Assembly (NCBI RefSeq): GCF_003602095.1
Contig: NZ_RAHH01000035.1
Location: 1 to 47,577 of the forward strand
DNA length: 47,577 bases
From: Rahnella woolbedingensis
GTDB taxonomy: Bacteria; Pseudomonadota; Gammaproteobacteria; Enterobacterales; Enterobacteriaceae
Reading direction: 5' to 3'
Shown here: positions 32,536-47,577 of the stretch, piece by piece
Numbering within the stretch: the first letter of the stretch is position 1
How the letters are laid out: each line of letters opens with the position of its first letter
The notes under the pieces: generated by a model
What the model was told of the DNA's origin: nothing
What the model saw: the letters and a program-made list of their open reading frames with translations, nothing else
Database searches by the model: none
Position numbers and translations under genes: made by a program

Positions 32536-34080
32536 TTACGACTTCGCCTTCGGCATCTGTGATACCAGAGACAAATTCACGTCCATACCTTCCACCTGGA
32601 AGTGCGGTACAGCGTACAGTTTCACGCGGAAGAAGCCTGGGTTGTCTTCGATATCTTCAACGGTGACTTTGGCGTCGCGCAGTGGGTGTGAAGCCTGCAG
32701 GTCGTCGCCCGGATCGGTCATTTCGGTGACCAGGGTGCTTACCCAGGTGTTCAGTTCCAGCTCAAGCAGGCGGCGGTCTTTGGTGGTGCCGATATTTTCA
32801 CGCTGAATAAGTTTCAGATAATGCGCGATGCGAGACAGCAAGAAAATGTACGGCAGGCGCGAATTGACACGGCTATTGGCTGTGGCAACGGCGGTCTCAT
32901 ACAGCGCGGGTTTTTGCGTGGAGTTGGCCGAGAAGAAGCAGGAGTAGTCCCTATTTTTATAATAACTTAGAGGAATAAAACCCAGATTGGCGAATTCAAA
33001 TTCGCGGGTTTCAGGGATCATCACCTCTGAAGGGATTTTCACCTGATTACCGGTGCCCAGGTCATACAGGTGGATAGGCAGGTCTTTCACCGCCCCGCCC
33101 GCCTGCGGACCACGGATTTGAACGCACCAGCCGTTATTGATGAAGCTTTTCACCATGTTGGCCGCAAACGCGAACGAGGCATTCGTCCACAGGTATTTAT
33201 CGTGATCCGGACCTGTCACTTCTTCGACGTAGTTGAAACTGCGTACCGGCACGGTGTCCGGGCCATACGGCAAACGACCCAGCACGCGTGGCATCACCAG
33301 ACCGATATAACGCGAGTCGTCGGTGTCGCGGAAAGATTTCCATTTGATGTATTCGGCGCGGTCAAAGTAGTTGCCGATATCTTTAATCGCCGCGACTTCT
33401 TCCATGCTGTCTTTGAGGAAGAATTTCGGGCCCGCCGAGCCGATAAAGGGCATATGGGCAGCGGCTGACACTTTTGATATATTACGCAGCAGTGCCACGT
33501 CTTGCGCTGACGCATCAAACTCATAGGCAGAAATCAGTGCGGCAACCGGCTCTCCGCCCGGAGTGTCGTATTCATCGATATAGGTGTGTTTGTACAGCCC
33601 GCTCTGAATAATCTCCGGCGCATCCTCAAAATCCTGACGCAGTTCGTCTTTGGACAGGTCGAGGATCTCCAGTTTGACGTTTTGGCGGAAGTCGGTTTTA
33701 TCGACCAGTGATTTGAGGCCACGCCAGACAGATTCTACTTTCTGGAACTCGTCATGGTGCATCACTTCGTCAAGCTGACGGCTTATCTGAAAATCCAGTT
33801 CAGCGATATGGCTGTCGAGCAGGGTTTTATCCAGTTTCTCCACTTTTTGTCCGGATTTTTGCAGCACCTGCATAAAGACCTGAACAGCCGCCGTCACGCG
33901 GGCATCAGTGGATGTTTCAGCCATAAAGCTGTTGTCCTGAAAACCGTCGATGTCTTTAATTTCAGACACCGGCGTTAAATTTATTTTATCAAACAAAGAC
34001 GCATATACACCGCCCTGCGGCAGTGTTTTTTCAATTGTGGTACCGCCCGCAGAGGACTGAGTTTCATTATTCACTGACAT
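32536..34080 (-). CDS. tssC: TssC large sheath subunit
   Basis: A 514-residue VipB/TssC protein: VTAAVQVFMQVLQKSGQKVE, LDFQISRQLDEVMHHDEFQK, VESVWRGLKSLVDKTDF and the highly conserved DPGDDLQASHPLRDAKVTVE, GFFRVKLYAVPHFQVEGMDV. It assembles with TssB into the contractile sheath. Two ATGs, 6 nt apart, are possible (34086 and 34080); I choose the second because AAGAGA is better spaced from it. The gene is 41 nt downstream of tssB. Confidence 0.97.
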   Translation of the reverse strand: MSVNNETQSSAGGTTIEKTLPQGGVYASLFDKINLTPVSEIKDIDGFQDNSFMAETSTDARVTAAVQVFMQVLQKSGQKVEKLDKTLLDSHIAELDFQISRQLDEVMHHDEFQKVESVWRGLKSLVDKTDFRQNVKLEILDLSKDELRQDFEDAPEIIQSGLYKHTYIDEYDTPGGEPVAALISAYEFDASAQDVALLRNISKVSAAAHMPFIGSAGPKFFLKDSMEEVAAIKDIGNYFDRAEYIKWKSFRDTDDSRYIGLVMPRVLGRLPYGPDTVPVRSFNYVEEVTGPDHDKYLWTNASFAFAANMVKSFINNGWCVQIRGPQAGGAVKDLPIHLYDLGTGNQVKIPSEVMIPETREFEFANLGFIPLSYYKNRDYSCFFSANSTQKPALYETAVATANSRVNSRLPYIFLLSRIAHYLKLIQRENIGTTKDRRLLELELNTWVSTLVTEMTDPGDDLQASHPLRDAKVTVEDIEDNPGFFRVKLYAVPHFQVEGMDVNLSLVSQMPKAKS

Positions 34081-37679: not shown

Positions 37680-38836
37680 TAAATAACTGCGCTTAATAGT
37701 AGATCACTGAAGGGAACTCAATCCGGTTTGAGCGATCTGATCAATCGCCAAACATCACAAACCCTCACAACCGGACTGAGCAATGCCGATCATAGCACCG
37801 ATACCCCGAAGCGAACGTTGCCAGATGGAGAAAATTGTCCATAAAACAACAGACAAAAATCATTCCAGACGCCTTATTACCATGTTGATGTTACATCGCG
37901 GTGAATCACTCACTTATGTCGCTAAAACTCTATGCGCAGCGCGTTCCTCCGTCGGGCGCTGGATTAACTGGTTCACATTATTTGGCATTGACGGTCTGAA
38001 AAGCCTTCCGGCTGGACGTCAAAAAAAGTGGCCTGTTGAGGAGATGCTTCGCATGTTGGATTTACTTGTTCAGCGCTCTCCGCAAGATTTCGGGTATCTA
38101 CGTTCCCGATGGAGTACTGAGATGTTAACGATTGAAATTAATAAGTTATTTAATGCTACATTACATCCTGGTTCGCTTAGGCGTTGGCTACCAGGCGCGG
38201 GTATTGTGTGGCGTAGGGCGGCTCCGACATTGCATATTCGCGATCCTTACAAAGAGGAAAAACTGGCAGCGATCAGTGACGCGCTGGAAAAAAACTGTGC
38301 CGACCATCCCGTATTTTACGAGGATGAAGTCGATATTGATCTCAACCCTAAGATTGGCGCCGACTGGCAAAAGAAAGGTCAACAGAAGCGCATTCCTACG
38401 CCGGGTACGAATCAAAAGCATTACCTTACCGGAGCTCTTCACGCGAGAACCGGCAGAGTGGAGTACGTCAGCGGGACAAGCAAGAACTCAGGCCTGTTCA
38501 TCAATATGTTACGCAAGTTAAGAAGTACATACCGCAGTGCCAAGACAATCACACTGATCGTTGATAATTACATCATCCATAAAAGCAAAAAGACGTTGAA
38601 ATGGTTGAAGAATAATCCAAAGTTTATAGTTATTTATCAGCCGGTTTATTCACCGTGGGTAAATAAAATAGAGCTTTTATGGCTGGCGTTGCACGAAACG
38701 GTCACACGTAATCATCGCTGCAGAACAATGTGGCAATTATTGAGCAATATCAGACAATTTATGAAAGCCGCTTCACCTTTCCCAAGAAACAAACGTGGGT
38801 TAACAAAAGTGGAGCGGTATTAAGCGCAGTTATTTA
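37680..38836 (+). mobile_element. IS630-family insertion sequence
   Basis: Perfect 20-bp terminal inverted repeats, CTAAATAACTGCGCTTAATA at 37679-37698 and its complement at 38818-38837, enclose one transposase gene. The TA at 37680-37681 and at 38835-38836 fits the TA target duplication of IS630/Tc1 elements, leaving a body of about 1153 bp. The transposase stop codon lies within the right repeat. The element looks intact. Confidence 0.93.
37783..38823 (+). CDS. IS630-family DDE transposase
   Basis: A 346-residue transposase with an N-terminal helix-turn-helix (SLTYVAKTLCAARSSVGRWI) and a DDE catalytic core: D181 (VFYEDEVDIDLNP), D261 (LIVDNYIIHKSK) and E297 (SPWVNKIELLWLALHE). It excises and inserts the element at TA dinucleotides. 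No frameshift or internal stop is seen. The second ATG at 37825 (MEKIVHKTT) is an alternative start. Confidence 0.95.
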   Translation: MPIIAPIPRSERCQMEKIVHKTTDKNHSRRLITMLMLHRGESLTYVAKTLCAARSSVGRWINWFTLFGIDGLKSLPAGRQKKWPVEEMLRMLDLLVQRSPQDFGYLRSRWSTEMLTIEINKLFNATLHPGSLRRWLPGAGIVWRRAAPTLHIRDPYKEEKLAAISDALEKNCADHPVFYEDEVDIDLNPKIGADWQKKGQQKRIPTPGTNQKHYLTGALHARTGRVEYVSGTSKNSGLFINMLRKLRSTYRSAKTITLIVDNYIIHKSKKTLKWLKNNPKFIVIYQPVYSPWVNKIELLWLALHETVTRNHRCRTMWQLLSNIRQFMKAASPFPRNKRGLTKVERY

Positions 38837-38916: not shown

Positions 38917-40231
38917 GAGACTGTAATTAAAATTGTGTAATTGCCTGTTTTTGATATGTTCACTCCAACAACGGAGACGGGCAAATTATGGACGAAAAGA
39001 AACTCAAAGCCCTTGCGGCTGAACTGGCTAAAGGCCTTAAAACCGAAGCCGATCTCAATGCGTTTTCTCGTATGCTCACGAAATTTACCGTTGAAACAGC
39101 GCTCAATGCAGAGCTGACTGACCACCTCGGACACGAGAATAACGCCCCAAAATCAGGCTCGAATACCCTCAACGGCTATTCATCCAAAACACTGCTGTGC
39201 GACGATGGCGAGATCGAACTGAGCACACCTCGCGATCGTGAAAACACCTTTGAGCCTCAGCTCATAAAGAAAAACCAGACGCGTATTACGCAGATGGACA
39301 GTCAGATTTTGTCCCTGTACGCCAAAGGTATGACGACCCGTGAAATCGTCGCCACGTTCAGGGAAATGTACGATGCGGACGTGTCTCCCACGCTGATATC
39401 TAAAGTCACCGATGCGGTTAAAGAACAGGTAACAGAGTGGCAAAATCGACCTCTGGATGCACTGTATCCCATTGTTTATCTCGACTGTATCGTGGTTAAA
39501 GTTCGTCACGGCGGCAGCGTGATTAACAAAGCCGTATTCCTCGCGCTGGGCATTAATACTGAAGGTCAGAAAGAACTGTTGGGCATGTGGCTGGCAGAAA
39601 ACGAAGGGGCAAAGTTCTGGCTCAGTATGCTGACAGAGCTTAAAAACCGGGGGCTTCAGGATATCCTGATTGCCTGCGTGGACGGGCTGAAGGGCTTCCC
39701 GGATGCGATAAACAGCGTTTATCCTCAGACGCACATCCAGTTGTGCATCATCCATATGGTGCGCAACAGCCTGAAATACGTGTCGTGGAAGGATTACAAA
39801 GCCGTCACCGGCGGACTGAAAACGGTGTATCAGGCTCCGACAGAGGAAGCCGCGCTGATGGCGCTGGATACGTTCGCGGGTGCCTGGGACGATAAATATC
39901 CGCAAATCAGCAAAAGCTGGCGGGCGCACTGGGAAAATCTCAATACGTTCTTCGGCTATCCGCCTGACATTCGCAAGGCAATCTACACCACGAATGCCAT
40001 CGAGTCGCTGAACAGCGTTATCCGTGTAGCTATCAAAAAGCGAAAGGTGTTCCCGACAGACGACTCGGTGCGAAAAGTGATTTACCTGGCGATCAGGGAT
40101 GCTTCAAAGAAATGGAGTATGCCGATCCAAAACTGGCGGCTGGCGATGAGTCGCTTTATTATCGAGTTCGGCGACCGCCTGAGCGATCACCTTTAATACG
40201 ATGGCAGTTACACAGAATTATTTACAGGGTC
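38917..40231 (+). mobile_element. IS256-family insertion sequence
   Basis: Imperfect terminal inverted repeats enclose a mutator-type transposase. The left end begins GAGACTGTAATTAAAATTGT and the right end, complemented, GACCCTGTAAATAATTCTGT; both then read GTGTAA-T/C-TGCC. The length is about 1315 bp, as usual for the family. The 8-bp flanks (TCAAAAAG left, AAAATTAC right) do not form the expected target duplication, so the element may have been involved in a rearrangement, or the ends are a few bases off. Confidence 0.88.
38988..40196 (+). CDS. IS256-family (mutator-type) transposase
   Basis: A 402-residue transposase. The ELTDHLGHENN segment near residue 42 and the catalytic residues D166 (YLDCIVVKVRHGG), D232 (ACVDGLKGFPDAI) and E339 (TTNAIESLNSVIR) identify the family. 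CTCCGTTG-type spacing gives only a modest ribosome site (ACGGAGACGGGCAAATT before ATG). The frame is intact. Confidence 0.96.
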   Translation: MDEKKLKALAAELAKGLKTEADLNAFSRMLTKFTVETALNAELTDHLGHENNAPKSGSNTLNGYSSKTLLCDDGEIELSTPRDRENTFEPQLIKKNQTRITQMDSQILSLYAKGMTTREIVATFREMYDADVSPTLISKVTDAVKEQVTEWQNRPLDALYPIVYLDCIVVKVRHGGSVINKAVFLALGINTEGQKELLGMWLAENEGAKFWLSMLTELKNRGLQDILIACVDGLKGFPDAINSVYPQTHIQLCIIHMVRNSLKYVSWKDYKAVTGGLKTVYQAPTEEAALMALDTFAGAWDDKYPQISKSWRAHWENLNTFFGYPPDIRKAIYTTNAIESLNSVIRVAIKKRKVFPTDDSVRKVIYLAIRDASKKWSMPIQNWRLAMSRFIIEFGDRLSDHL

Positions 40232-40235
40232 AAAA

Positions 40236-42191
40236 TTACTGCGGCCTGTGTCCACGTTGAGGAGACGGTCTGTTTACATCATCGTAGAACAGTTCGATTT
40301 TATCAGGTGCAAATTGTCCGGAACTTTTGTTATGCAGTTCATCCTCATATCCGGCTTTAAATTTCTGCTGTGGGTCACTAAGCGGTAGTCTCGAACCGCT
40401 CTCCTCATTAAACCACGGAACAATTTCCGTAGCAGTCTGTACAAATGCGGCATGTCCTTCAAACACCATTTCTTCCCCGGACTTAGATTGAGCCAGCACC
40501 AATGAAGTAATCACATGCTGACCTTCCAGTTCGCCTGCACGGGCAATTTCCAGTCGCTCACCTTTATCCTGAATCTGAACCTGACCACCTTGATAATATT
40601 GCACCGTACCATCGCGGTTAATAACCGTGTCATACCCTTCAATAGTCATTGGCTTGCTGTCATCGGAAACACCAAAGCGGATACTATTTTCCGAGACGTT
40701 GGCCGTTCTGGCATTGCGTTTAAGACGATAAGACCAACCACGTAGCTGGGAAATGGCCGCTTGATCATGTTGCTCAGCCTGCTGTTCTACCCATGCACGA
40801 TAGGACAGACGTTGATTAGAAGGATCTGCTTTAAAGGCCGTTCTTTCTGCCTTCACTTCCATCCGAAGCGCAGCCATTGCCTTCATCCTTTCAACTTCGA
40901 TAATGTGATAAGTCAGTTTACGTAACAGTGGATCATTGATAGCAACTCGGGCACGAGCCTTCTGCCAGGCAAACTTTTTAGATGCATTCTGGTAACGCTT
41001 TTTAATCTCATCGCTGTTTAGCTTTGGACGTACCCAGGAGGATTTATAAGCACGATATCTCGCCTTCAAATCTTCCCGGGCATCCGCTCTGGCCACACGC
41101 CTTTCAGTTCTAGCCAGAAGATCACGCGCATGGAATTTTGGCTCATATGCAAACTCTGGTTGTACCTGAATTGCGCTTTCTTGCGTACTAATGTCGCTCT
41201 TAACCAATGGTGGTTGAACCTGAACGAAATCTCCGATGTGTGGTTCTAAACAATTCAGCGTCAGGTCAGGATGAAGACTGCTGGCCTTGATAGGTACCAA
41301 CGTTTCATCCATTAAAGAATACACAGCAAGACCTTCACCTTTACGCTTCAAGATAAGGCCAGCGCGGGTCATTTCATTCTGTATGTCTTGCCAGTTAAGT
41401 CTCTCGGTGTCTTCCATAATGTCACCAATATTGTCGCGACACTCACTGACGGCATAGCTAAAGAGGCTTTCAGAATCGGCGTAATACTCAAGCTGTTTTG
41501 CTTTCCGAGGAATAGACTTAAAGTCATTTTTATTACGCACAATCTGCTGATCATCACTTATCTTCCATGCACCATTATCCGGTGTGAATCCATGCTTCAG
41601 TTCAAGATGGCGGCAAGCTTTATGCAATGTATCAACGTCGTTGTACATGTTGGTTGCGCAATATGAAATTGGATTAATACGGTTAGCGGCAATATGACAA
41701 TGCACATTATCGGTATCTCGATGAATTGCAAAGATGTACTGATGATCAGACATACCCAGTTGAGAAATACAGTGACGAGCACTATCAAAAATTTGCTGGT
41801 CAGTCGGAGTATCCTCTTCTCGCCAGGAAAGGATGCAGTGATATACAGGATCAAGACAACGGGTATTCTGTAAGGCTACGGCATTCATTTCTGCTGACGC
41901 AGTTTCTAGGCTGAAGCAGTTGGTTTCAACCACAACATTGCCGCTTAATACCTGCTGTGTGCCATCGTCAAAAGTGGCAAGAACAGCCTGGTCCTCAACC
42001 GATGCATTGCGATCAAGGTATTCGACCAGGCGGTTGAAAATAGCTTCTTTAGAACGAGAAGGTCGAACATAAGGATTCTCAGGAGAAATCGGCATATCAG
42101 ATTTTTGTTCTTCACGCAGAGTCAGATAGCTGACCAGTTGAATGAAACTGGAACGTCCATCTTTGCGCTTTTCAGGAACGATCGGAATCAT
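40236..42191 (-). CDS. MOBP-family relaxase (TraI/NikB-like)
   Basis: A 651-residue relaxase. The candidate catalytic tyrosine is Y22 (SSFIQLVSYLTLREE), the same position as in RP4 TraI. The three-histidine metal motif reads H157-RDTDNV-H164-C-H166 followed by IAANRINP. It nicks oriT and leads the transferred strand into the recipient. The C-terminal half is charged and helical, with a DGTVQYYQGGQV-type segment. It overlaps the MobC-like gene by 4 nt (ATGA). The stop codon is only 5 nt from the IS256 end, so the C-terminus may have been altered by that insertion; SPQRGHRPQ at the end gives no clue. Confidence 0.92.
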   Translation of the reverse strand: MIPIVPEKRKDGRSSFIQLVSYLTLREEQKSDMPISPENPYVRPSRSKEAIFNRLVEYLDRNASVEDQAVLATFDDGTQQVLSGNVVVETNCFSLETASAEMNAVALQNTRCLDPVYHCILSWREEDTPTDQQIFDSARHCISQLGMSDHQYIFAIHRDTDNVHCHIAANRINPISYCATNMYNDVDTLHKACRHLELKHGFTPDNGAWKISDDQQIVRNKNDFKSIPRKAKQLEYYADSESLFSYAVSECRDNIGDIMEDTERLNWQDIQNEMTRAGLILKRKGEGLAVYSLMDETLVPIKASSLHPDLTLNCLEPHIGDFVQVQPPLVKSDISTQESAIQVQPEFAYEPKFHARDLLARTERRVARADAREDLKARYRAYKSSWVRPKLNSDEIKKRYQNASKKFAWQKARARVAINDPLLRKLTYHIIEVERMKAMAALRMEVKAERTAFKADPSNQRLSYRAWVEQQAEQHDQAAISQLRGWSYRLKRNARTANVSENSIRFGVSDDSKPMTIEGYDTVINRDGTVQYYQGGQVQIQDKGERLEIARAGELEGQHVITSLVLAQSKSGEEMVFEGHAAFVQTATEIVPWFNEESGSRLPLSDPQQKFKAGYEDELHNKSSGQFAPDKIELFYDDVNRPSPQRGHRPQ

Positions 42192-42538
42192 GATTTAGTC
42201 CGCTGTTCTGCAAAACCATCAATGCCCATGTCGATACTTATGATTGCCTTTTTGATAGCAACAAGAATCTCCGAATACTCCTTACTGAATACCTCACTAA
42301 CATTACCTCGACCTTCATTAAAAAGGTGCTTTTGTAACCCTCCTAAACGCTGCAACTCCATCATCAGTTTTGTGTCTGTCTTTGGTGTGATGCGACGCCC
42401 AAGAGCACATCGACGAAGGTATTCACCCACGCTTAAGCCTGCGGCCTGAGCGCTTTGGAGTATTTCCAGTTTCTCTTCTGGAAAACAACGAATACTTGGA
42501 AGCAGAGCTGTTCTGTTCCTACTTTCGCTTTTACTCAT
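42188..42538 (-). CDS. MobC/NikA-like relaxosome accessory protein
   Basis: A 116-residue basic protein. LLPSIRCFPEEKLEILQSAQ, AAGLSVGEYLRRCALGRRI is the ribbon-helix-helix-type opening of MobC/NikA proteins, which bind oriT and help the relaxase reach the nic site. The start is at 42538 with AAGGACTCTATTCACC upstream. The open frame continues to 42808, but that part covers the oriT hairpins and is not protein-like. It is coupled to the relaxase by an ATGA overlap. Confidence 0.85.
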   Translation of the reverse strand: MSKSESRNRTALLPSIRCFPEEKLEILQSAQAAGLSVGEYLRRCALGRRITPKTDTKLMMELQRLGGLQKHLFNEGRGNVSEVFSKEYSEILVAIKKAIISIDMGIDGFAEQRTKS

Positions 42539-42570
42539 GGTGAATAGAGTCCTTTTAGTCTCGCTGGATA

Positions 42571-42662
42571 ATAGTCTCGGGGTGTCGGGGCTTTGCCCTG
42601 ACCAGGTCGTTTTGTTGGACCGACTGCGTGCAGGCGGTGCTACAAAACATATCCTGTCCCGG
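42571..42662 (+). other. Origin of transfer (oriT) with nic site
   Basis: An inverted repeat GTCGGGGC-TTT-GCCCTGAC (42584-42602, 8 bp with one wobble) is followed 48 nt later by ATATCCTG-TCCC (42649-42660), matching the YATCCTG/Y nic consensus of IncP/IncI-type relaxases. The predicted cut is between G42656 and T42657 on the plus strand. The T would carry the relaxase, and the strand would enter the recipient reading toward higher coordinates. Its position directly upstream of the mobC-relaxase pair supports the call. Confidence 0.85.
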
Positions 42663-42806
42663 ATTTGAAACCTAATATTGAGATATTGCCAGATATGGCC
42701 TGGAATGTCACTACACCGGTCATGACTATTAGATATGTTTATGGGATGAGATGTTTTTGCTATGATATGAGCGTATTTTTCATAACAAACAAATAGGTAC
42801 ACTCTC

Positions 42807-43124
42807 ATGGCAGCAAACAGCTACTACACGATAGAACAGCTTGAATTGGCAAAAATGCAGCTCGCTGAATTGCCTGATTTGAATGCATCGAGAATGACAG
42901 GGAAAGATGTGTTAGAAAATCTTCGGGAACAACTTGTTGAGCTTTCTGTGAAGAAAGGATATACCGCTGTTGAGATAAAATCGGCTCTTGATTCAGCAGG
43001 GATTGTTGTCAGCGTGAAAGCGATAAAAGACGCAATTGATAAAAATGAAGTGACAAAAAAGAAACGCGCTTCACGAAGCATAAAATCTTCAGATACGAAA
43101 AATAATTCTGTAGCAACTCAATAA
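42807..43124 (+). CDS. Small basic protein beside oriT, possible TraK-like DNA-binding factor
   Basis: A 105-residue protein with a predicted helix-turn-helix-like middle (KGYTAVEIKSALDSAGIVVS, VKAIKDAID) and a Lys/Ser-rich tail (KKKRASRSIKSSD). The layout (oriT-proximal, opposite strand to mobC and relaxase, short, basic) is that of oriT-binding accessory proteins such as RP4 TraK. Similarity is by pattern only. AGGTACACTCTC precedes the ATG. It is the one gene in the leading region on the plus strand, so it could not be transcribed from the entering strand directly. Confidence 0.65.
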   Translation: MAANSYYTIEQLELAKMQLAELPDLNASRMTGKDVLENLREQLVELSVKKGYTAVEIKSALDSAGIVVSVKAIKDAIDKNEVTKKKRASRSIKSSDTKNNSVATQ

Positions 43125-43157
43125 AAAATTAATCACCCGTGTCAAAGCAACATTACG

Positions 43158-43192
43158 TGATCCATGAGGGGGTCAACCCCCTGAATGGATCA
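43158..43192. repeat. Long inverted repeat between convergent genes
   Basis: TGATCCAT-g-AGGGGGT, CA, ACCCCCT-ga-ATGGATCA forms a 15-bp interrupted stem with a 2-nt loop. It lies between the plus-strand basic gene and the minus-strand DUF5983-like gene. Neither side has an adjacent T-run, so it is not a classical terminator. It could be a structure in single-stranded transfer DNA or a protein site. Confidence 0.6.
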
Positions 43193-43240
43193 TAGCGTAG
43201 TAAAAAAGACTCATCACTCACCAAATGCTATCGAGACAAA

Positions 43241-43275
43241 TCCGTGTCTCTCCTCTCGATGAGGGGAGACACGGA
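43241..43275 (-). terminator. Terminator-like hairpin after the klcA operon
   Basis: A 10-bp perfect stem (TCCGTGTCTC / GAGACACGGA), extended by three more pairs, 8 nt beyond the stop codon of the DUF5983-like gene. On the minus strand it is followed by TTTGTC, only a weak T-run, so termination may be partial. Confidence 0.55.
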
Positions 43276-43282
43276 ACGCGAG

Positions 43283-43588
43283 CTACCAGTCAAAAAACTT
43301 TTCACCTAAGATCACGTCTGCATCACGGTCAAATTCAATCATTGAAACTCTATGTTGACGCACCATTCGATAAATAAATTTCCTAAATTCGTTTGAAATC
43401 CCTAACTTCTTTAATGACTTTAAAAGCTTAGGCCGAGCATCTAGAAGAAGGATAAATCCATATTCTGTGTTGAAAATTTTACGGAGAGTCTTGTGTGAAT
43501 GCTCTTGAAAAATCTTCATATCCTCTAACATCATGTGACCAGTACTACATACGAGACAACTCTTAATTTCTGGATATTCATTTCTCAT
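43283..43588 (-). CDS. DUF5983-like leading-region protein
   Basis: A 101-residue protein. CSTGHMMLEDMKIFQEHS near the N-terminus and the end IEFDRDADVILGEKFFDW follow the general pattern I associate with DUF5983 proteins of enterobacterial plasmids and islands (an early TGH/TAH motif, a final D-x-D...FDW). The start at 43588 is chosen for AGGAAACGAAAAC; the frame extends to 43690 but would overlap klcA. It lies 52 nt after klcA on the same strand, apparently one operon expressed early in a recipient. The function is unknown; an anti-defence role is inferred from the location. Confidence 0.6.
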   Translation of the reverse strand: MRNEYPEIKSCLVCSTGHMMLEDMKIFQEHSHKTLRKIFNTEYGFILLLDARPKLLKSLKKLGISNEFRKFIYRMVRQHRVSMIEFDRDADVILGEKFFDW

Positions 43589-43640
43589 GTTTTCGTTTCC
43601 TAATGATGGCGGTGGTTCGTTCACCGCCATCAAAAAATCA

Positions 43641-44087
43641 TTAATCGATTGCTCGATAAATAGCAGAATGTTCAGAAATTGTTTCGGCATAATCCTTCAA
43701 CTTTTCTGATTGCTGGTAAAGATGATTTAATAATTCTTGCCGGTCACTGTCCGCAGAATCCCACATCAGCATATTTAGGGCATAAAGCGTTACAACAATC
43801 CCTGCTGCATCAGCGGAAACTTCTTCATGAAATCCATTTCCCGCAATAGATAGTTCGATTTTTTCCATATCTGGACGAAGATAAAAACCACCATTCGACA
43901 AACTAATGAAATCCCAGTACCCACCTGTATAGCCAGCGCAAATGTTTCTCATGTAACCTGTTATAAGATTTTCCCCACGCATAAATGCACTGCCAAAGAG
44001 CGCAGGCAGAACATCCATGCGTTGATTCTCTGACACAACTTCAGCGGTGATTGTTGTGTTACTTGCTGATATTCCTGATTGATTCAT
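43641..44087 (-). CDS. klcA: Antirestriction protein, KlcA/ArdB family
   Basis: A 148-residue protein with family blocks ENQRMDVLPALFGSAFMRGE, GYTGGYWDFISLSNGGFYLR and SADAAGIVVTLYALNMLMWD. KlcA/ArdB proteins protect incoming DNA from type I restriction without acting as simple DNA mimics. AGGAGGATTATC gives a strong ribosome site. It sits in the leading region about 1 kb from the nic site, and its template is the entering strand. The structured element at 44107-44477 begins 20 nt upstream of its start codon. Confidence 0.93.
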   Translation of the reverse strand: MNQSGISASNTTITAEVVSENQRMDVLPALFGSAFMRGENLITGYMRNICAGYTGGYWDFISLSNGGFYLRPDMEKIELSIAGNGFHEEVSADAAGIVVTLYALNMLMWDSADSDRQELLNHLYQQSEKLKDYAETISEHSAIYRAID

Positions 44088-44106
44088 GATAATCCTCCTG
44101 TGGCTT

Positions 44107-44477
44107 TCTTTCCGGTGTCACCTTTTTAGGTTTCACGTATGCGGGGAGTCTTGCTCCGTGGAAAAAGACCGGGACGGGGTATTAGCTGACCAAACAAGGG
44201 CAGCGTCGAAGCCGCAGCGCAAACGAGAGAGGAACGAACGAGTGCGAACGGGTGAGTAAGCTGGCGAAGCGCATCCTTGTTTGGGCTGCGCACCGTGCCA
44301 GCGTCTTCCACGGAGGAAGAAAACCCGCAGCGAACACCAGGTTAAAAGCGACACCGGAAAGACCGGCTCGCCGGGCATTAGTGGACACGACAGTGGCCAG
44401 TTAAAGCGGCGCGGTCGAAAGACCGCTGCAAGCGCGCCGTTTATTTGTCTGTTCTCCGCTCAATGCGGAGAACAGAC
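44107..44477 (-). promoter_or_regulatory. Structured element, copy A: candidate Frpo/ssi-like single-strand promoter
   Basis: A non-coding 371-nt block upstream of klcA. Nested pairings are visible: outer 13-bp stem 44107-44119 with 44350-44362; inner 10-bp stem CCAAACAAGG 44190-44199 with CCTTGTTTGG 44275-44284; hairpin GCGGTC-GAAA-GACCGC at 44411-44426; and a perfect 13-bp hairpin at 44447-44477. A core at 44211-44255 (including GAGGAACGA and TGCGAACGGGTGA) recurs in copy B. Frpo of plasmid F is a folded single-stranded promoter in the leading region. Position, orientation and structure fit that role, but identity with Frpo is inferred. Confidence 0.7.
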
Positions 44478-44520
44478 AATCCGCGGGAGAATTCTGGAGT
44501 AACAACGTTAAACATCCTTA

Positions 44521-44562
44521 AAACAAAATTGCCCCTTCCCTATCGGCAGGAAAGGAGCGGGG
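44521..44562 (-). terminator. Terminator-like hairpin after the lar operon
   Basis: On the minus strand CCTTTCC pairs with GGGAAGG around a short loop, with outer CCCC/GGGG support, and is followed by CAATTTTGTTTT. It lies 130 nt beyond the Lar-like stop and just before copy A of the structured element, so it would separate the two mini-operons. Confidence 0.5.
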
Positions 44563-44693
44563 TTTAGGCTATGAACATTATTTTTTTACGGTATGGTTAC
44601 GTTGTTCATGCGAAAATTAACGTTATCGAGCCACACCAGCCAGTCATTTTCCATTCAGGTTCTCGTTATCTATTTCGCGATACCTTTCCACTT

Positions 44694-44966
44694 TTAGAAG
44701 CGTATATTCCACGATCGGATCGCCTCATTAAAAACCTCTGCATGAATCGTTTTCATCGTAACTGTATCAACGATCTGCTCCTCATCTGCAGCAGCAACGA
44801 CTGCACCCTGTGCTGTACAAAGTGAACACTCAACCCAGTAACATGCCGTACCTGTATTCTCGACCTGCATCAGATCAGAACCACAAAACGGGCAGGGTTT
44901 TAACGGCATATCAATGCCATCTTCATAGATACCGTAAGCGTTATACCCATCAATTTTTATTTTCAT
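44694..44966 (-). CDS. Lar-like restriction alleviation protein (zinc ribbon)
   Basis: A 90-residue protein. LKPCPFCGSDLM (C25, C28) and VECSLC (C47, C50) form a zinc ribbon, and the end EVFNEAIRSWN matches the A-x3-WN end of Lar-type proteins. Lar of the Rac prophage modulates type I restriction in favour of modification. AAGGACTGACAAT precedes the ATG, and the gene follows the 75-residue unknown by 4 nt. A second antirestriction-type gene here strengthens the reading of this block as a leading region. Confidence 0.78.
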   Translation of the reverse strand: MKIKIDGYNAYGIYEDGIDMPLKPCPFCGSDLMQVENTGTACYWVECSLCTAQGAVVAAADEEQIVDTVTMKTIHAEVFNEAIRSWNIRF

Positions 44967-44970
44967 ATTG

Positions 44971-45198
44971 TCAGTCCTTAAACCCCATCATGCGCAACCA
45001 GCTGTTTAGGAGAGCACGCGTTTTAAAATTTGTTTTTTGCATAGGCATATTGCTTGAACCGTCCATCCAGACTCGGGCACCGGCTGCGAACTGGCGAACC
45101 TCTGCGCTATATCCGCGCCGGATGTAATACTGTTTCCCCGTGTAGCCATCCGTGTAGACTGTGGCATTTGGCATAACAAGCGGCGCTGGATGTTTCAT
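44971..45198 (-). CDS. Small unknown leading-region protein
   Basis: A 75-residue basic protein (TDGYTGKQYYIRRGYSAEVR, then KTNFKTRALLNSWLRMMGFK). There are no cysteines, signal peptide or membrane segment, and no family is recognised. AAGGGATCATGT is a good ribosome site. It is the first gene after structured element copy B and is followed 4 nt later by the Lar-like gene, so it should be among the first proteins made in a recipient. Guilt by association suggests an anti-defence or establishment function. Confidence 0.7.
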   Translation of the reverse strand: MKHPAPLVMPNATVYTDGYTGKQYYIRRGYSAEVRQFAAGARVWMDGSSNMPMQKTNFKTRALLNSWLRMMGFKD

Positions 45199-45242
45199 AC
45201 ATGATCCCTTCTTAGGTTACTGGTAGCCTTTCGGCTTTTTTA

Positions 45243-45617
45243 CGGTGTATCCCCTTTGTTGTGATGAAGGCGGGGATCCTGTTGCTGTGACAAAAGAACG
45301 ACATGGGGAATGAGTGAGCGTTACCGGGGCGACGCCGCAGGCCGCAGCGTAAAGACGGGAGGAACGACCGGATGCGAACGGGTGAAGACGGCGGGTGAAA
45401 CCTTTACCCTGGTAACGTGAACGCCCCGTGTCAGTGTCTGTCCCTGCAAAAGGGAAACCACCAATTACGAAGGGAAGGACATACCGGGCAGCATGGCCAA
45501 CCTCCACAGCGGCCACGCAGGTGGCCAGTGAAAGCAGTACACCCGGCGGGTGCTGCAAGCTGGCTGTCGCGCTTCGTCGCCCGGGATGGGCTCAAAGCCC
45601 GTTCAGGGCGAACGCGC
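45243..45617 (-). promoter_or_regulatory. Structured element, copy B: candidate Frpo/ssi-like single-strand promoter
   Basis: A diverged second copy of the block upstream of klcA, here preceding the 75-residue gene and lar by about 45 nt. The core 45341-45385 is identical to copy A at 37 of 45 positions. Equivalent helices are present with other sequences: outer CGGTGTATCC 45243-45252 with GGACATACCG 45477-45486 (one mismatch, one wobble); inner CGTTACCGGGG 45319-45329 with CCCTGGTAACG 45407-45417 (one wobble); hairpin CACCC-GGC-GGGTG 45540-45552; GGGCT-CAA-AGCCC 45588-45600. GTGGCCAGT-x-AAAGC and GCTGCAAGC flank the hairpin in both copies. Confidence 0.7.
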
Positions 45618-45620
45618 ATG

Positions 45621-45672
45621 AAAAAGCCGCTTCGAAAAGCGGCTCAGAAAGTGCAATAATTACACTTTTTTT
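45621..45672. terminator. Bidirectional terminator after the toxin-antitoxin operon
   Basis: AGCCGCTT-CGAA-AAGCGGCT (45625-45644) is flanked on the minus strand by a T-run and terminates the antitoxin transcript. A second stem AAAGTG / CACTTT with a following TTTT run (45648-45672) works for plus-strand transcripts. The second stem includes GTGCAATAATTACAC, which recurs as GTGCAATAATTGCAC at 46465. Confidence 0.8.
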
Positions 45673-45676
45673 GTTT

Positions 45677-45973
45677 TTAAAGGGTGCGAAGTGCGTCTAT
45701 AACAGCGGGGTCACGCTCAATCATCATCAACAGTTTCAAAGATGAACCTGATGGAATACGACGATGCTGTTCCCAGCTCTGGAGTAGTGACGCAGAAACC
45801 CCAACGACATCAGCAAATTCATTTTGCTTAAGGCCGCTCGCTTCTCGCATTGATTTTACGTCTGGTAACCGATGGCGATGGATGTTTTCAGCCGGAACAG
45901 ACAATGTACCTTTCTCGATAGCAACCATCTGTTGCATACTTTCAACGAGATCATTAAACAGTTCAGTTTTCAT
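45677..45973 (-). CDS. NadS/HigA-type antitoxin
   Basis: A 98-residue XRE-family helix-turn-helix protein (VKSMREASGLKQNEFADVVG, VSASLLQSWEQHRRIPSG) with the N-terminal extension usual for NadS-type antitoxins. It neutralises the RelE-type toxin encoded directly upstream and probably represses the pair. GAGAGGGGGAATA is a very strong ribosome site, and a CCCCGC-x3-GCGGGG hairpin lies between toxin stop and antitoxin start (about 46000-46015). Both may favour antitoxin over toxin output. The toxin-first order is that of higBA. Confidence 0.88.
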   Translation of the reverse strand: MKTELFNDLVESMQQMVAIEKGTLSVPAENIHRHRLPDVKSMREASGLKQNEFADVVGVSASLLQSWEQHRRIPSGSSLKLLMMIERDPAVIDALRTL

Positions 45974-46018
45974 TATTCCCCCTCTCAGGTAGATAATGCC
46001 CCGCAGTGCGGGGGCTTG

Positions 46019-46342
46019 TTATTCGATTTGCTGACTTATCGATTTCAGGACAGCTTTTTCGGCTTCCGTCAGATCTTCTTTTTCATTCTTGGGGTAAACG
46101 AGTAGCAGATAAAGGCGCCCCGATTTAGTGATGACATAATAAATAACTCTTACTCCCCCTCGCTTCCCCATGCCTTCACGACTCCAGCGGATTTTTTTAC
46201 ATCCACCTGTTTTACTGATTGTGTCGCCAAGTTCATGGTTTTTTAGAAGATGCTCCTGTAAAGCTCTGAAGTCATCATCTGGCAGGAGTTCGGCTCTTCG
46301 CCTGCTAAATACGGGGGTCTCAATGAATTCTAGATACTCCAT
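46019..46342 (-). CDS. RelE/HigB-family toxin
   Basis: A 107-residue protein of the RelE/ParE superfamily: EYLEFIETPVFSRRRAELLP at the start, KIRWSREGMGKRGGVRVIYY and LYLLLVYPKNEKEDLTEAEK near the end. Members cleave mRNA at the ribosome or poison gyrase; the R-x-I-Y-Y strand and K-x-E-K-x-D-L-T motif favour the HigB-2-type mRNA interferases. It is the first gene of the pair, immediately downstream of twin palindromes at 46379-46424. Confidence 0.88.
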   Translation of the reverse strand: MEYLEFIETPVFSRRRAELLPDDDFRALQEHLLKNHELGDTISKTGGCKKIRWSREGMGKRGGVRVIYYVITKSGRLYLLLVYPKNEKEDLTEAEKAVLKSISQQIE

Positions 46343-46378
46343 TAACGCTCGTCCCTTGCTGACCGTGAAATTATTATA

Positions 46379-46424
46379 TTCGTACTGAGTACGAATTACA
46401 ATGTTTATTCGTACTCAGTACGAA
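46379..46424 (-). promoter_or_regulatory. Twin palindromic operators of the toxin-antitoxin operon
   Basis: TTCGTACTGAGTACGAA (46379-46395) and TTCGTACTCAGTACGAA (46408-46424) are 17-nt palindromes that differ only at the central base, with centres 29 bp apart. They lie 37 and 66 nt upstream of the toxin start, where the XRE antitoxin should bind and autorepress. Confidence 0.85.
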
Positions 46425-46493
46425 TAAACATAGATGTATCATCGTAAAATAAAAATATATAATAGTGCAATAATTGCACCTTTAGAGATGATT

Positions 46494-46766
46494 ATGACGG
46501 GTTATGAACTGCGTTTGTGGCGAAAAGGCATGGGTTGGGATCAGGATCGCGCTGCGGAAGAACTGGGGAAATGCCTGCGAACGTATAAAGCCTATGAGAA
46601 ATCACCGGCTATCGACCGCGTTGTCGAACTCGCCACCCGATCGCTGACACTTACCTCATTGCTTCCCGCGCTGTCTGATAAGAACAGCGCGGAAATCTGT
46701 AGGGTTCTCGGCACACTGGTGGACAGGCAGTCCGCTACGATGCCATTAAAAATCCGTCAAAATTGA
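46494..46766 (+). CDS. XRE-like helix-turn-helix regulator
   Basis: A 90-residue protein. MTGYELRLWRKGMGWDQDRA, AEELGKCLRTYKAYEKSPAI is a lambda-repressor-type helix-turn-helix, and VVELATRSLTLTSLLP is the usual following segment of small plasmid and phage regulators. I choose the ATG at 46494; 46488 and 46434 are in-frame alternatives. It diverges from the toxin-antitoxin operon and has its own imperfect palindrome GTGCAATAATTGCAC at 46465-46479, a candidate autoregulatory site. It converges on, and overlaps by 32 nt, the next gene. Confidence 0.78.
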   Translation: MTGYELRLWRKGMGWDQDRAAEELGKCLRTYKAYEKSPAIDRVVELATRSLTLTSLLPALSDKNSAEICRVLGTLVDRQSATMPLKIRQN

Positions 46767-47232
46767 ATACGTCATTGACGGCGACCGGCCATCCTTCTGC
46801 GACCCACACCATCACCCAACTTTCAGATTCCTGACAGCGATACAGCATGCCCAACGCACCGGCGGGCAAATCTGAGGGTTCAAAATGGTTACGCCGGTTT
46901 CCGTTACGCACGATGTAACTCAATAAATCCTCAAGTTGCGCCGACGTCAGAGCGGTTTCCGCAACAATGCCCTGAGCAGATACGTTCTTAGGTGCCTGCC
47001 CTTTTCCCTTGCCATAGTATTGATATGTGGCGTCCAGCGGGTGATTGGACGACATAAACGGTGTGGTATCAATACGGCTAAGGTCTCTTTTTTCCGCAAT
47101 ACTGTTAACCACTTCAAAAGGCTGCTGACCGGTGGCTTCGCACACTTCCAGTTCCTTCGGGTCGATACCGTCGTCAAGTGTGATCCCATAATGTCGCATC
47201 AGCAACATCCCTACCTTCTCTGCGTATATCAT
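46735..47232 (-). CDS. Unknown protein, second gene of a right-end pair
   Basis: A 165-residue protein with no recognised family. It starts MIYAEKVGMLLMRHYGITLD, has a middle TPFMSSNHPLDATYQYYGKG, and ends with an aromatic-rich strand (ESWVMVWVAEGWPVAVNDVF). It has no signal peptide or membrane segment. It overlaps the upstream 94-codon gene by 4 nt (ATGA), so the two are coupled. The 3' end runs under the convergent XRE gene. Location suggests a mobile-element function, but nothing more can be said. Confidence 0.65.
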   Translation of the reverse strand: MIYAEKVGMLLMRHYGITLDDGIDPKELEVCEATGQQPFEVVNSIAEKRDLSRIDTTPFMSSNHPLDATYQYYGKGKGQAPKNVSAQGIVAETALTSAQLEDLLSYIVRNGNRRNHFEPSDLPAGALGMLYRCQESESWVMVWVAEGWPVAVNDVFNFDGFLMAS

Positions 47233-47513
47233 GCGACCTTCCCGACAGGAGCGAGGTCTAAGAGGATCTGAGTTTTTGTGACTTGAATTTGCAAATCATG
47301 CTGACCTTCAAGCAATGCGGTTATAACCACTGGGGTCAGTGGCAACGTTTCTGCAAAATCATCCCCTCCTACCGCAGCGACGCAGGCGTCATGTAACTCC
47401 CCCCCATCTGCAAAAATGTCAGGATCGTAACCTTCGGCATAGACAACCGTGCGTTTACCACCGTCTTTGACCTTCTCGACTGAAGACATGACATAAATCC
47501 GGCTCTGTCGCAT
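47229..47513 (-). CDS. Unknown acidic protein, first gene of a right-end pair
   Basis: A 94-residue acidic protein (VVYAEGYDPDIFADGGELHD, ACVAAVGGDDFAETLPLTPV). The ATG at 47489 (MSSVEKVKDGGKR) is an alternative start; neither has a clear ribosome site. An acidic product coupled to a second gene in an element next to oriT could be a DNA mimic or an antitoxin, but this is speculation. It is preceded by a 10-bp inverted repeat at 47526-47560. Confidence 0.6.
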   Translation of the reverse strand: MRQSRIYVMSSVEKVKDGGKRTVVYAEGYDPDIFADGGELHDACVAAVGGDDFAETLPLTPVVITALLEGQHDLQIQVTKTQILLDLAPVGKVA

Positions 47514-47525
47514 TAAGCGGCTTAT

Positions 47526-47560
47526 CAGGTAACATGCTGTTTTTTTTGTGATGTTACCTG
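47526..47560 (-). promoter_or_regulatory. Inverted repeat upstream of the right-end gene pair
   Basis: CAGGTAACAT and ATGTTACCTG are perfect 10-bp inverted arms separated by 15 nt including a run of eight Ts. They lie 13 nt upstream of the first possible start of the 94-residue gene. A repressor operator is the simplest reading; the T-run might also form part of a promoter. Confidence 0.45.
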
Positions 47561-47577
47561 CCCATGTCTCTGATCCG

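Follow-up and report, generated by a model that had tools for sequence, protein, structure and literature searches.

What do two related non-coding blocks do on contig NZ_RAHH01000035.1 of Rahnella woolbedingensis, and in which nucleic acid do they fold? The stretch analysed, called the window here, is one whole contig of 47,577 nucleotides (nt), and it carries part of a mobilizable plasmid. The first-pass annotation had read the blocks as structured promoters acting on single-stranded DNA (ssDNA), similar to Frpo of plasmid F and ssi of ColIb-P9. We consider it probable (about 0.85, from comparison of sequences) that these elements and their relatives would be ssDNA promoters working like F Frpo and ColIb-P9 ssi. 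This reading is favoured because of their position and orientation in the leading region, a covarying hairpin on the transferred strand (T-strand), boxes found on the folded arm only, and the failure to find a conventional promoter.

Two copies of one structured element

The two blocks, elements 1 and 2 (Table 1), are diverged copies of one structured element, and their local alignment has an E-value of 1.4e-13. As first described, they share a 45-nt core at 37 of 45 positions (82% identity) and a second stretch, AGTGGACACGACAGTGGCCAGTTAAAGC / AGCGGCCACGCAGGTGGCCAGTGAAAGC, at 22 of 28 (79%). A search with a 25-nt degenerate core pattern made from the two copies, allowing up to 3 mismatches, gave no third match in the window and no match at all in 100 shuffles. 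The helices named beforehand (CCAAACAAGG/CCTTGTTTGG, CGTTACCGGGG/CCCTGGTAACG, GCGGTC-GAAA-GACCGC and CACCC-GGC-GGGTG) are present in the sequence and in single-strand folds, and so is the outer stem. More precisely, the outer stem of element 1 pairs 44107-44125 with 44344-44362 (inverted repeat I6, 19 nt, 89%). With RNA parameters, the + strand is unusually stable in element 1 (z = -8.2) and element 2 (z = -4.1); with DNA parameters, element 1 has z = -7.6. No model of Rfam 15 reaches its gathering score in the window, and positions 43900-45900 give only six sub-threshold matches.

Covariation of the helices had also been claimed. Two sequences cannot prove it, and compensation between two copies could be chance, so relatives were gathered. 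In the plasmid collection, copy 1 matches 89 records (316 places) and copy 2 matches 51 records (89 places), from Yersinia, Serratia, Candidatus Erwinia, Enterobacter and Leclercia. Alignment A1 consists of 15 elements and is the source of the covariance model R1 (205 positions). Over these 15 elements, 25 of the 52 predicted pairs show compensatory double changes, such as GGGG/CCCC in the basal helix to GTTCC/GGAAC in two relatives. The covariation score is 0.363 against 0.162 in shuffled alignments (0/500 reach it), and partners slid out of register give at most 0.102.

The search with R1 gave 95 matches in 46 sources at E <= 1e-8; E-values of R1, and of the model R2 described below, are rough because of a short calibration. 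Both window elements are training rows, matched at 44138-44334 (192.1 bits) and 45267-45467 (156.6 bits). The 95 matches include the 15 training rows. Removing rows at least 85% alike left 66 non-redundant rows, which include those of the training rows that were retained. Alignment A2 (94 distinct rows) has compensatory double changes at 47 of 52 pairs and a covariation score of 0.432, compared with 0.146 for shuffles (0/500) and at most 0.076 for slid partners.

Since A2 is fitted to the model, two further covariation tests were made, with a custom script in the style of R-scape rather than R-scape itself. Under a tree-aware null for the 66 rows, 14 of 17,955 column pairs are significant, and 13 of these 14 lie inside the predicted structure. 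When the same null is limited to structure pairs, 24 of 52 pass. Structure-free alignments of the 27 and 40 best-scoring rows each leave 5 significant pairs of 19,503, all nested and with standard pairing in 86-100% of rows. The absence of covarying homologues, which would have spoken against the first-pass reading, is excluded.

The apical 45-nt core is an optional module. It is missing in 5 of 20 non-redundant elements, which keep the basal helices. Where the core occurs it is highly conserved, so it may have a binding partner. As for distribution, R1 has matches in 32 of 246 genomes of the same family and in 4 of 321 of the wider class (own genome included in each count), so the R1 class is mostly confined to the family sampled. 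Genome G352, from another family of the class, carries two R1 matches of equal score (contig C3, 3509-3704 and 100526-100721), a hint of spread beyond the family. BLAST with element 2 finds 2 of 5,426 complete E. coli genomes; because R1 does detect relatives in F, most of the class escapes BLAST.

Folded strand, gene starts and promoter boxes

The paired columns of the + strand hold 181 G.T against 43 A.C, or 128 against 42 without two doubtful or special pairs. Likewise, of the two strands the + strand has the more stable fold in 64 of 66 rows under DNA parameters and in 59 of 66 under RNA parameters. The alignment behind these strand tests leans to the model, and with that caution the G.T excess and the better folding of the + strand favour a fold in the T-strand or in a + strand RNA over one in the genes' leader RNA. 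A T-strand stem-loop under selection is also a property of the Frpo/ssi functional class.

A leader RNA would be a structured 5' part of the minus-strand transcripts, acting as riboregulator or mRNA stabiliser, with the fold in read-through transcript. The elements do sit just upstream of start codons, and a good fold is seen for the minus strand of element 1 too (RNA z = -7.55, DNA z = -5.96), as any near-palindromic hairpin does. However, selected pairing on the minus strand would leave A.C on the + strand, where G.T dominates. The minus strand of element 2 reaches an RNA z of only -1.6, and the stability comparison above goes against this explanation too. A conventional sigma70-like site directed at the gene was found in 0 of 64 elements, searched with 150 nt beyond, where 4.2 were expected. 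A leader RNA would also leave unexplained the conserved boxes of the 3' arm described below. We regard it as very unlikely.

The orientation of the region comes from its transfer origin (oriT). The gene order is relaxase, NikA-like gene, nic-like site and then a series of minus-strand genes. The nic-like site ACATATCCTGTCCCGG, which we take to be a nic of IncI1/RP4 type, agrees in relative place and orientation with ColIb-P9 CACATCCTGTCCCG. Given this orientation, the + strand should enter the recipient first and be the template for the minus-strand genes. The 5' end of the T-strand is taken as 42657, which would make the + strand the T-strand. Element 1 begins 1.5 kb and element 2 2.6 kb beyond the nic-like site. 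The placing given initially, just upstream of minus-strand genes in the leading region, stands, with the relaxase gene and the nic-like site as its landmarks. In annotated plasmids, the R1 relatives have psiB, ardA, ssb and DUF932 genes as their neighbours. Such a location near oriT, in the window and in these plasmids, is that of the Frpo/ssi functional class, and so is the use of the T-strand as template of the directly downstream gene.

R1 has 65 matches in the window and the annotated plasmids, and 60 of them stand 15-100 nt before the start of a gene whose template is the folded strand; the background for this placing is 6.4% of positions. These gene starts are 58 annotated coding sequences and two open reading frames (ORFs) of the window. 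The other five have no listed start within 150 nt (L003 6025, L005 14444, L018 16198, L007 4839 and L016 16951); the gene tables of the plasmids have gaps and cover protein genes alone. Among the genes that follow the matches are those for ArdB/KlcA and ArdA antirestriction proteins, DNA methylases and DUF932 proteins, and the ParB-psiB-psiA operon. Contigs with at least two R1 matches in the family search are strand-coherent in 19 of 19 cases (own included). A spread of homologues mainly far from oriT and on either strand, which would also have spoken against the first-pass reading, was not seen in the annotated plasmids or in these 19 contigs.

The elements might instead be single-strand initiation sites for second-strand synthesis only, used by RNA polymerase, primase or a PriA primosome, with gene expression as a side effect. 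Frpo transcripts also prime DNA synthesis in vitro, according to the available text of PMC7690428, and the hexamer AAGCGG occurs at the foot of the 3' module's hairpin (see below). Against this, a position directly before a gene start is not needed for priming alone; the 3' module model has no match to the phiX174 stretch, and the hexamer is missing in four F and ColIb-P9 rows. We give this alternative little probability.

The 3' arm of the hairpin carries TTG in 60 of 66 elements. The motif nAnnnT follows the TTG hexamer after 15-16 nt in 63 of 66 (200 shuffles: mean 6.0, maximum 13), and TAnnnT stands at that place in 45 of 66 (mean 0.7, maximum 3). The gene-sense strand of the duplex, complementary to the 5' arm, has nAnnnT at this place in 2 of 66 and TAnnnT in 0 of 66. 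The conserved A of the -10-like box lies in a small unpaired bulge of the consensus fold. In 94 rows, the partner of the first T of TTG is G in 50 and A in 42, so TTG is often lost on the duplex gene-sense strand (TTG in 21 of 66). Boxes at -35 and -10 on the folded strand are thus found across the R1 class, as in the Frpo/ssi functional class, and are weak in both window copies.

These boxes are clear only from aligned columns. A free TTGACA/TATAAT search over the arms of 93 elements gave weak, mixed sites, and shuffles did as well in 22% (3' arm) and 57% (gene-sense complement of the 5' arm) on average. Another -10 candidate lower in the outer stem (TATAAA, in one Serratia copy, by eye) was dropped because it is not conserved. 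The scan of 42500-47577 for double-stranded promoters turned up no minus-strand site in the interval from either element to its gene.

A + strand structured RNA, antisense or small, would fold as modelled, and the strand tests cannot separate it from + strand ssDNA. A 9-of-12 promoter-like site precedes element 1 (44066-44093, +). However, such a site stands just upstream in only 1 of 64 elements, where 2.0 were expected. An RNA starting at the TTG/nAnnnT of the 3' arm would not contain the hairpin, because the boxes lie in that arm, and the placing before start codons would be left unexplained. We consider this explanation very unlikely.

For an ssDNA promoter, the sequence of events could be the following. 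After nicking at oriT, the + strand would enter the recipient with its 5' end leading, and within 1.5-3 kb it would bring in two imperfect hairpins, each about 250 nt long. Their folded arms would be used as a duplex, with the 3' arm as nontemplate (TTG at -35, nAnnnT at -10) and the 5' arm as template. Host RNA polymerase would presumably bind there, transcribe to the hairpin base and run into the flanking gene; in element 1 the transcript may start near 44157. The products would be the ArdB/KlcA-type antirestriction protein (element 1), and the small ORF and the Lar-type restriction alleviation protein (element 2). These anti-restriction proteins may then be made before the second strand. 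Once it is made, the hairpin would be lost, the -10 would no longer be opposite the template, and the promoter would turn off. The elements may also prime second-strand synthesis.

Several points weigh against this interpretation. As DNA, element 2 shows no unusual stability (z = 0.05, equalled or bettered by 107 of 200 shuffles), so its fold is supported by the comparison with relatives and not by DNA stability. The good fold of the minus strand of element 1, given above, belongs here as well. A structure-free alignment of the 66 rows shows little difference between strands (RNAalifold -24.6 for + and -21.9 for -). The fit of A2 to R1 is a further point, with 15 rows that trained R1 and 28 of 46 sources found with R1 itself. 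Both -10 boxes of the window share only 2 of 6 positions with TATAAT, the -35-like box of element 2 reads TGG where the family has TTG, and a 15-16 nt spacer is short for sigma70. The optional 3' module follows only 27 of 65 R1 matches at E < 1e-3. R1 has no match to the proven Frpo/ssi hairpins, and the Frpo-like sites of plasmid pC110-KPC give only fragments (E 0.46-4.4). Finally, published Frpo-like candidates may overlap the R1 class.

The 3' module and the surrounding features

A second conserved part, the module R2, follows R1 on its 3' side at a distance of 6-35 nt in the 27 cases just mentioned, none of which is in F or ColIb-P9. In alignment A3 its hairpin has a covariation score of 0.332 against 0.087 for shuffles (0/500). 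The end of the module after this covarying hairpin, GCTGCAAGC, is invariant in 25 rows that had been selected for GCTGCAAG-like matches. R2 is common to F Frpo1 and Frpo2, to two presumed ssi places of ColIb-P9 and to their relatives. A3 includes four F and ColIb-P9 rows, and R2 was built from it; R2 also finds 8 sites outside A3, in pC110-KPC and a Leclercia plasmid. The elements carry a homologue of the 3' module seen in the Frpo1/Frpo2/ssi sequence family. Directly 3' of the module of element 1, a perfect 15-bp hairpin, TTGTCTGTTCTCCGC-TCAAT-GCGGAGAACAGACAA, is present at 44445-44479.

Table 1. Elements, boxes, modules and neighbouring features of the window (positions on the contig)
Feature	Coordinates	Strand	Basis or remark
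Element 1, candidate ssDNA promoter hairpin	44107..44362	+	inverted repeat, folds, R1 match
Element 2, candidate ssDNA promoter hairpin	45243..45495 (outer ends approximate)	+	R1 match, RNA fold
Apical core of element 1	44211..44255	+	45-nt core shared by copies
Apical core of element 2	45341..45385	+	45-nt core shared by copies
-35-like box TTGTTT, element 1, 3' arm (nontemplate of folded hairpin)	44277..44282	+	family TTG
-10-like box CAGCGT, element 1, 3' arm, 16-nt spacer	44299..44304	+	family NANNNT
-35-like box TGGTAA, element 2, 3' arm, departs from family TTG	45410..45415	+	aligned columns
-10-like box CAGTGT, element 2, 3' arm, 16-nt spacer	45432..45437	+	aligned columns
R2 module of element 1, AAAGCGGCGC-hairpin-GCTGCAAGC	44352..44436	+	R2 67.7 bits (training row); alignment A3
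R2 module of element 2, AAAGCAGTAC-hairpin-GCTGCAAGC	45473..45563	+	R2 50.4 bits (training row)
Nic-like site of oriT, ATCCTG|TCCCGG	42651..42656	+	sequence ACATATCCTGTCCCGG, between NikA-like and MobC-like genes
MOBP-type relaxase gene (TraI/MobA)	40236..42191	-	Pfam Relaxase PF03432, 5.5e-30
ArdB/KlcA-type antirestriction gene, served by element 1	43641..44087	-	Pfam Antirestrict PF03230, 3.3e-23
Lar-type restriction alleviation gene, second in operon served by element 2	44694..44966	-	Pfam Lar_restr_allev PF14354, 3.4e-8
75-amino-acid ORF, first ORF downstream of element 2	44971..45198	-	without Pfam match
Terminator-like hairpin after upstream Lar operon	44531..44558	-	scan of 42500-47577
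Terminator-like hairpin AGCCGCTTTTCGAAGCGGCT and T-run, after upstream HTH/RelE-type operon	45621..45645	-	read from sequence

Element 1 ends 20 nt before the ArdB/KlcA-type gene; element 2 precedes the 75-amino-acid ORF, which is followed by the Lar-type gene. The operons of both elements each have a terminator-like hairpin upstream. The hairpin beyond element 2 has no listing in the automated scan and overlaps a sub-threshold Rfam match to STnc100. The helix-turn-helix (HTH) and RelE-like operon has an ordinary sigma70-like promoter, TTGTAA-17-TATAAT (46373-46426), overlapping two copies of the palindrome TATTCGTACTGAGTACGAAT, which are probably the operator of this operon itself. On the lagging side, two transposase-like ORFs adjoin the relaxase gene (37783-38823 and 38988-40196; IS630-like and mutator-like, by eye).

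Comparison with Frpo, ssi and other known elements

If the interpretation as ssDNA promoters is right, the genes for antirestriction, methyltransferases and DUF932-type proteins in many plasmids of enterobacteria, F and ColIb-P9 included, would be under entry-coupled promoters. The family would provide covariation evidence for a fold acting in single-stranded DNA, and a searchable sequence signature, namely boxes on the folded arm that are missing from the duplex. Recognition of folded ssDNA by RNA polymerase would become testable with two unlike hairpin classes. A single-stranded promoter in the leading region has reportedly been known since Masai and Arai in 1997. The literature searched, which left subscription papers mostly outside its reach, did not describe a distinct class of hairpins for F or ColIb-P9.

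The covariance model and the search of plasmids found relatives in F and ColIb-P9 at sites other than Frpo and ssi. In F, R1 matches 52645-52838 (59 bits) and 56473-56722 (49 bits), the latter 33 nt before an antirestriction gene. In ColIb-P9, it matches 22358-22551, 26187-26436 before an antirestriction gene, and 33824-34073, 32 nt before ardA. In the sequence records used, these matches lie at L007 4646-4839 and 8474-8723 (F), L009 8359-8552 and 12188-12437, and L008 3825-4074 (ColIb-P9). Four of the five end 32-41 nt before a listed gene, in tables of protein genes only.

R1 gave no match at E up to 10 to F Frpo1, Frpo2 or the presumed ColIb-P9 ssi places. The MAFFT pairs of window elements and F Frpo showed no usable hairpin similarity, and 15 Frpo-type sites aligned together yielded no clear consensus fold. 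By the R1 model, the promoter hairpin is not homologous to that of the Frpo1/Frpo2/ssi sequence family, so the R1 hairpin is a class separate from Frpo/ssi, although the 3' module R2 is shared with them. The initial description as Frpo/ssi-like ssDNA promoters is favoured by the comparative tests and needs two refinements: the hairpin is of its own class, and the part in common is R2. We lean, with some reserve, towards a second, structurally independent class of ssDNA promoters that is also present in F and ColIb-P9. Its -35 and -10 would be functional only in the folded incoming strand, the duplex gene-sense strand having no -10, and the 3' module would be a common landing site for both classes, bound by RNA polymerase, SSB or the primosome.

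Like F Frpo1 and Frpo2, the window elements are long imperfect hairpins upstream of genes in the leading region, with the T-strand as template, and they share the 3' module (GCGGCGC-hairpin-GCTGCAAGC). We located the F sites as an 89% repeat of L007 and from the places upstream of ygeA and ssb given in the available part of PMC9849209. Their downstream genes are different from those of the window, being ygeA/ygeB and ssb-yfjAB-psiBA in that text, which also states that early expression in transconjugants depends on Frpo1/2. For folded ssDNA of this kind, transcription by RNA polymerase in vitro is reported in PMC8406263.

ColIb-P9 ssi1-ssi3 resemble the elements in the same points as Frpo. The three places were assigned by similarity to F Frpo rather than by coordinates in print. 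R2 is found at two of them and, at E up to 1, not at the third; R1 matches none of the three. The IncI ardA gene is reported as induced from a single-stranded promoter in the portion of PMC3874165 that was available. For two related plasmids, the available text of PMC10104558 describes three operons driven by ssi1-3 and puts ardA among them; that ardA has a separate promoter is thus our own inference.

The primosome assembly site of phiX174 offers another comparison. It has AAGCGG at the 5' foot of its hairpin (2309-2345; L051 60-96), a hexamer that we take to be that of the primosome site. At the foot of the R2 hairpin, AAGCGG occurs in 15 of 25 rows (by eye). A PriA/n'-pas identity of the phiX174 type, raised by this likeness, was rejected: R2 has no positive-scoring match in phiX174 2250-2650, and the hexamer is all that is shared.

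Samuel et al. 2024 (PMC11541004) list Frpo, Frpo' and Frpo* candidates, of which the last two stand close to the R1 elements. In the part of that paper available, they are predicted ssDNA promoters of leading regions, antirestriction islands included, as the R1 elements would be. Unlike R1, they were found by canonical -35/-10 boxes, folding and BLAST. In pC110-KPC, which carries an island of that study, R1 finds one element (84 bits), 30 nt before an antirestriction gene, and it sits apart from four R2-bearing sites.

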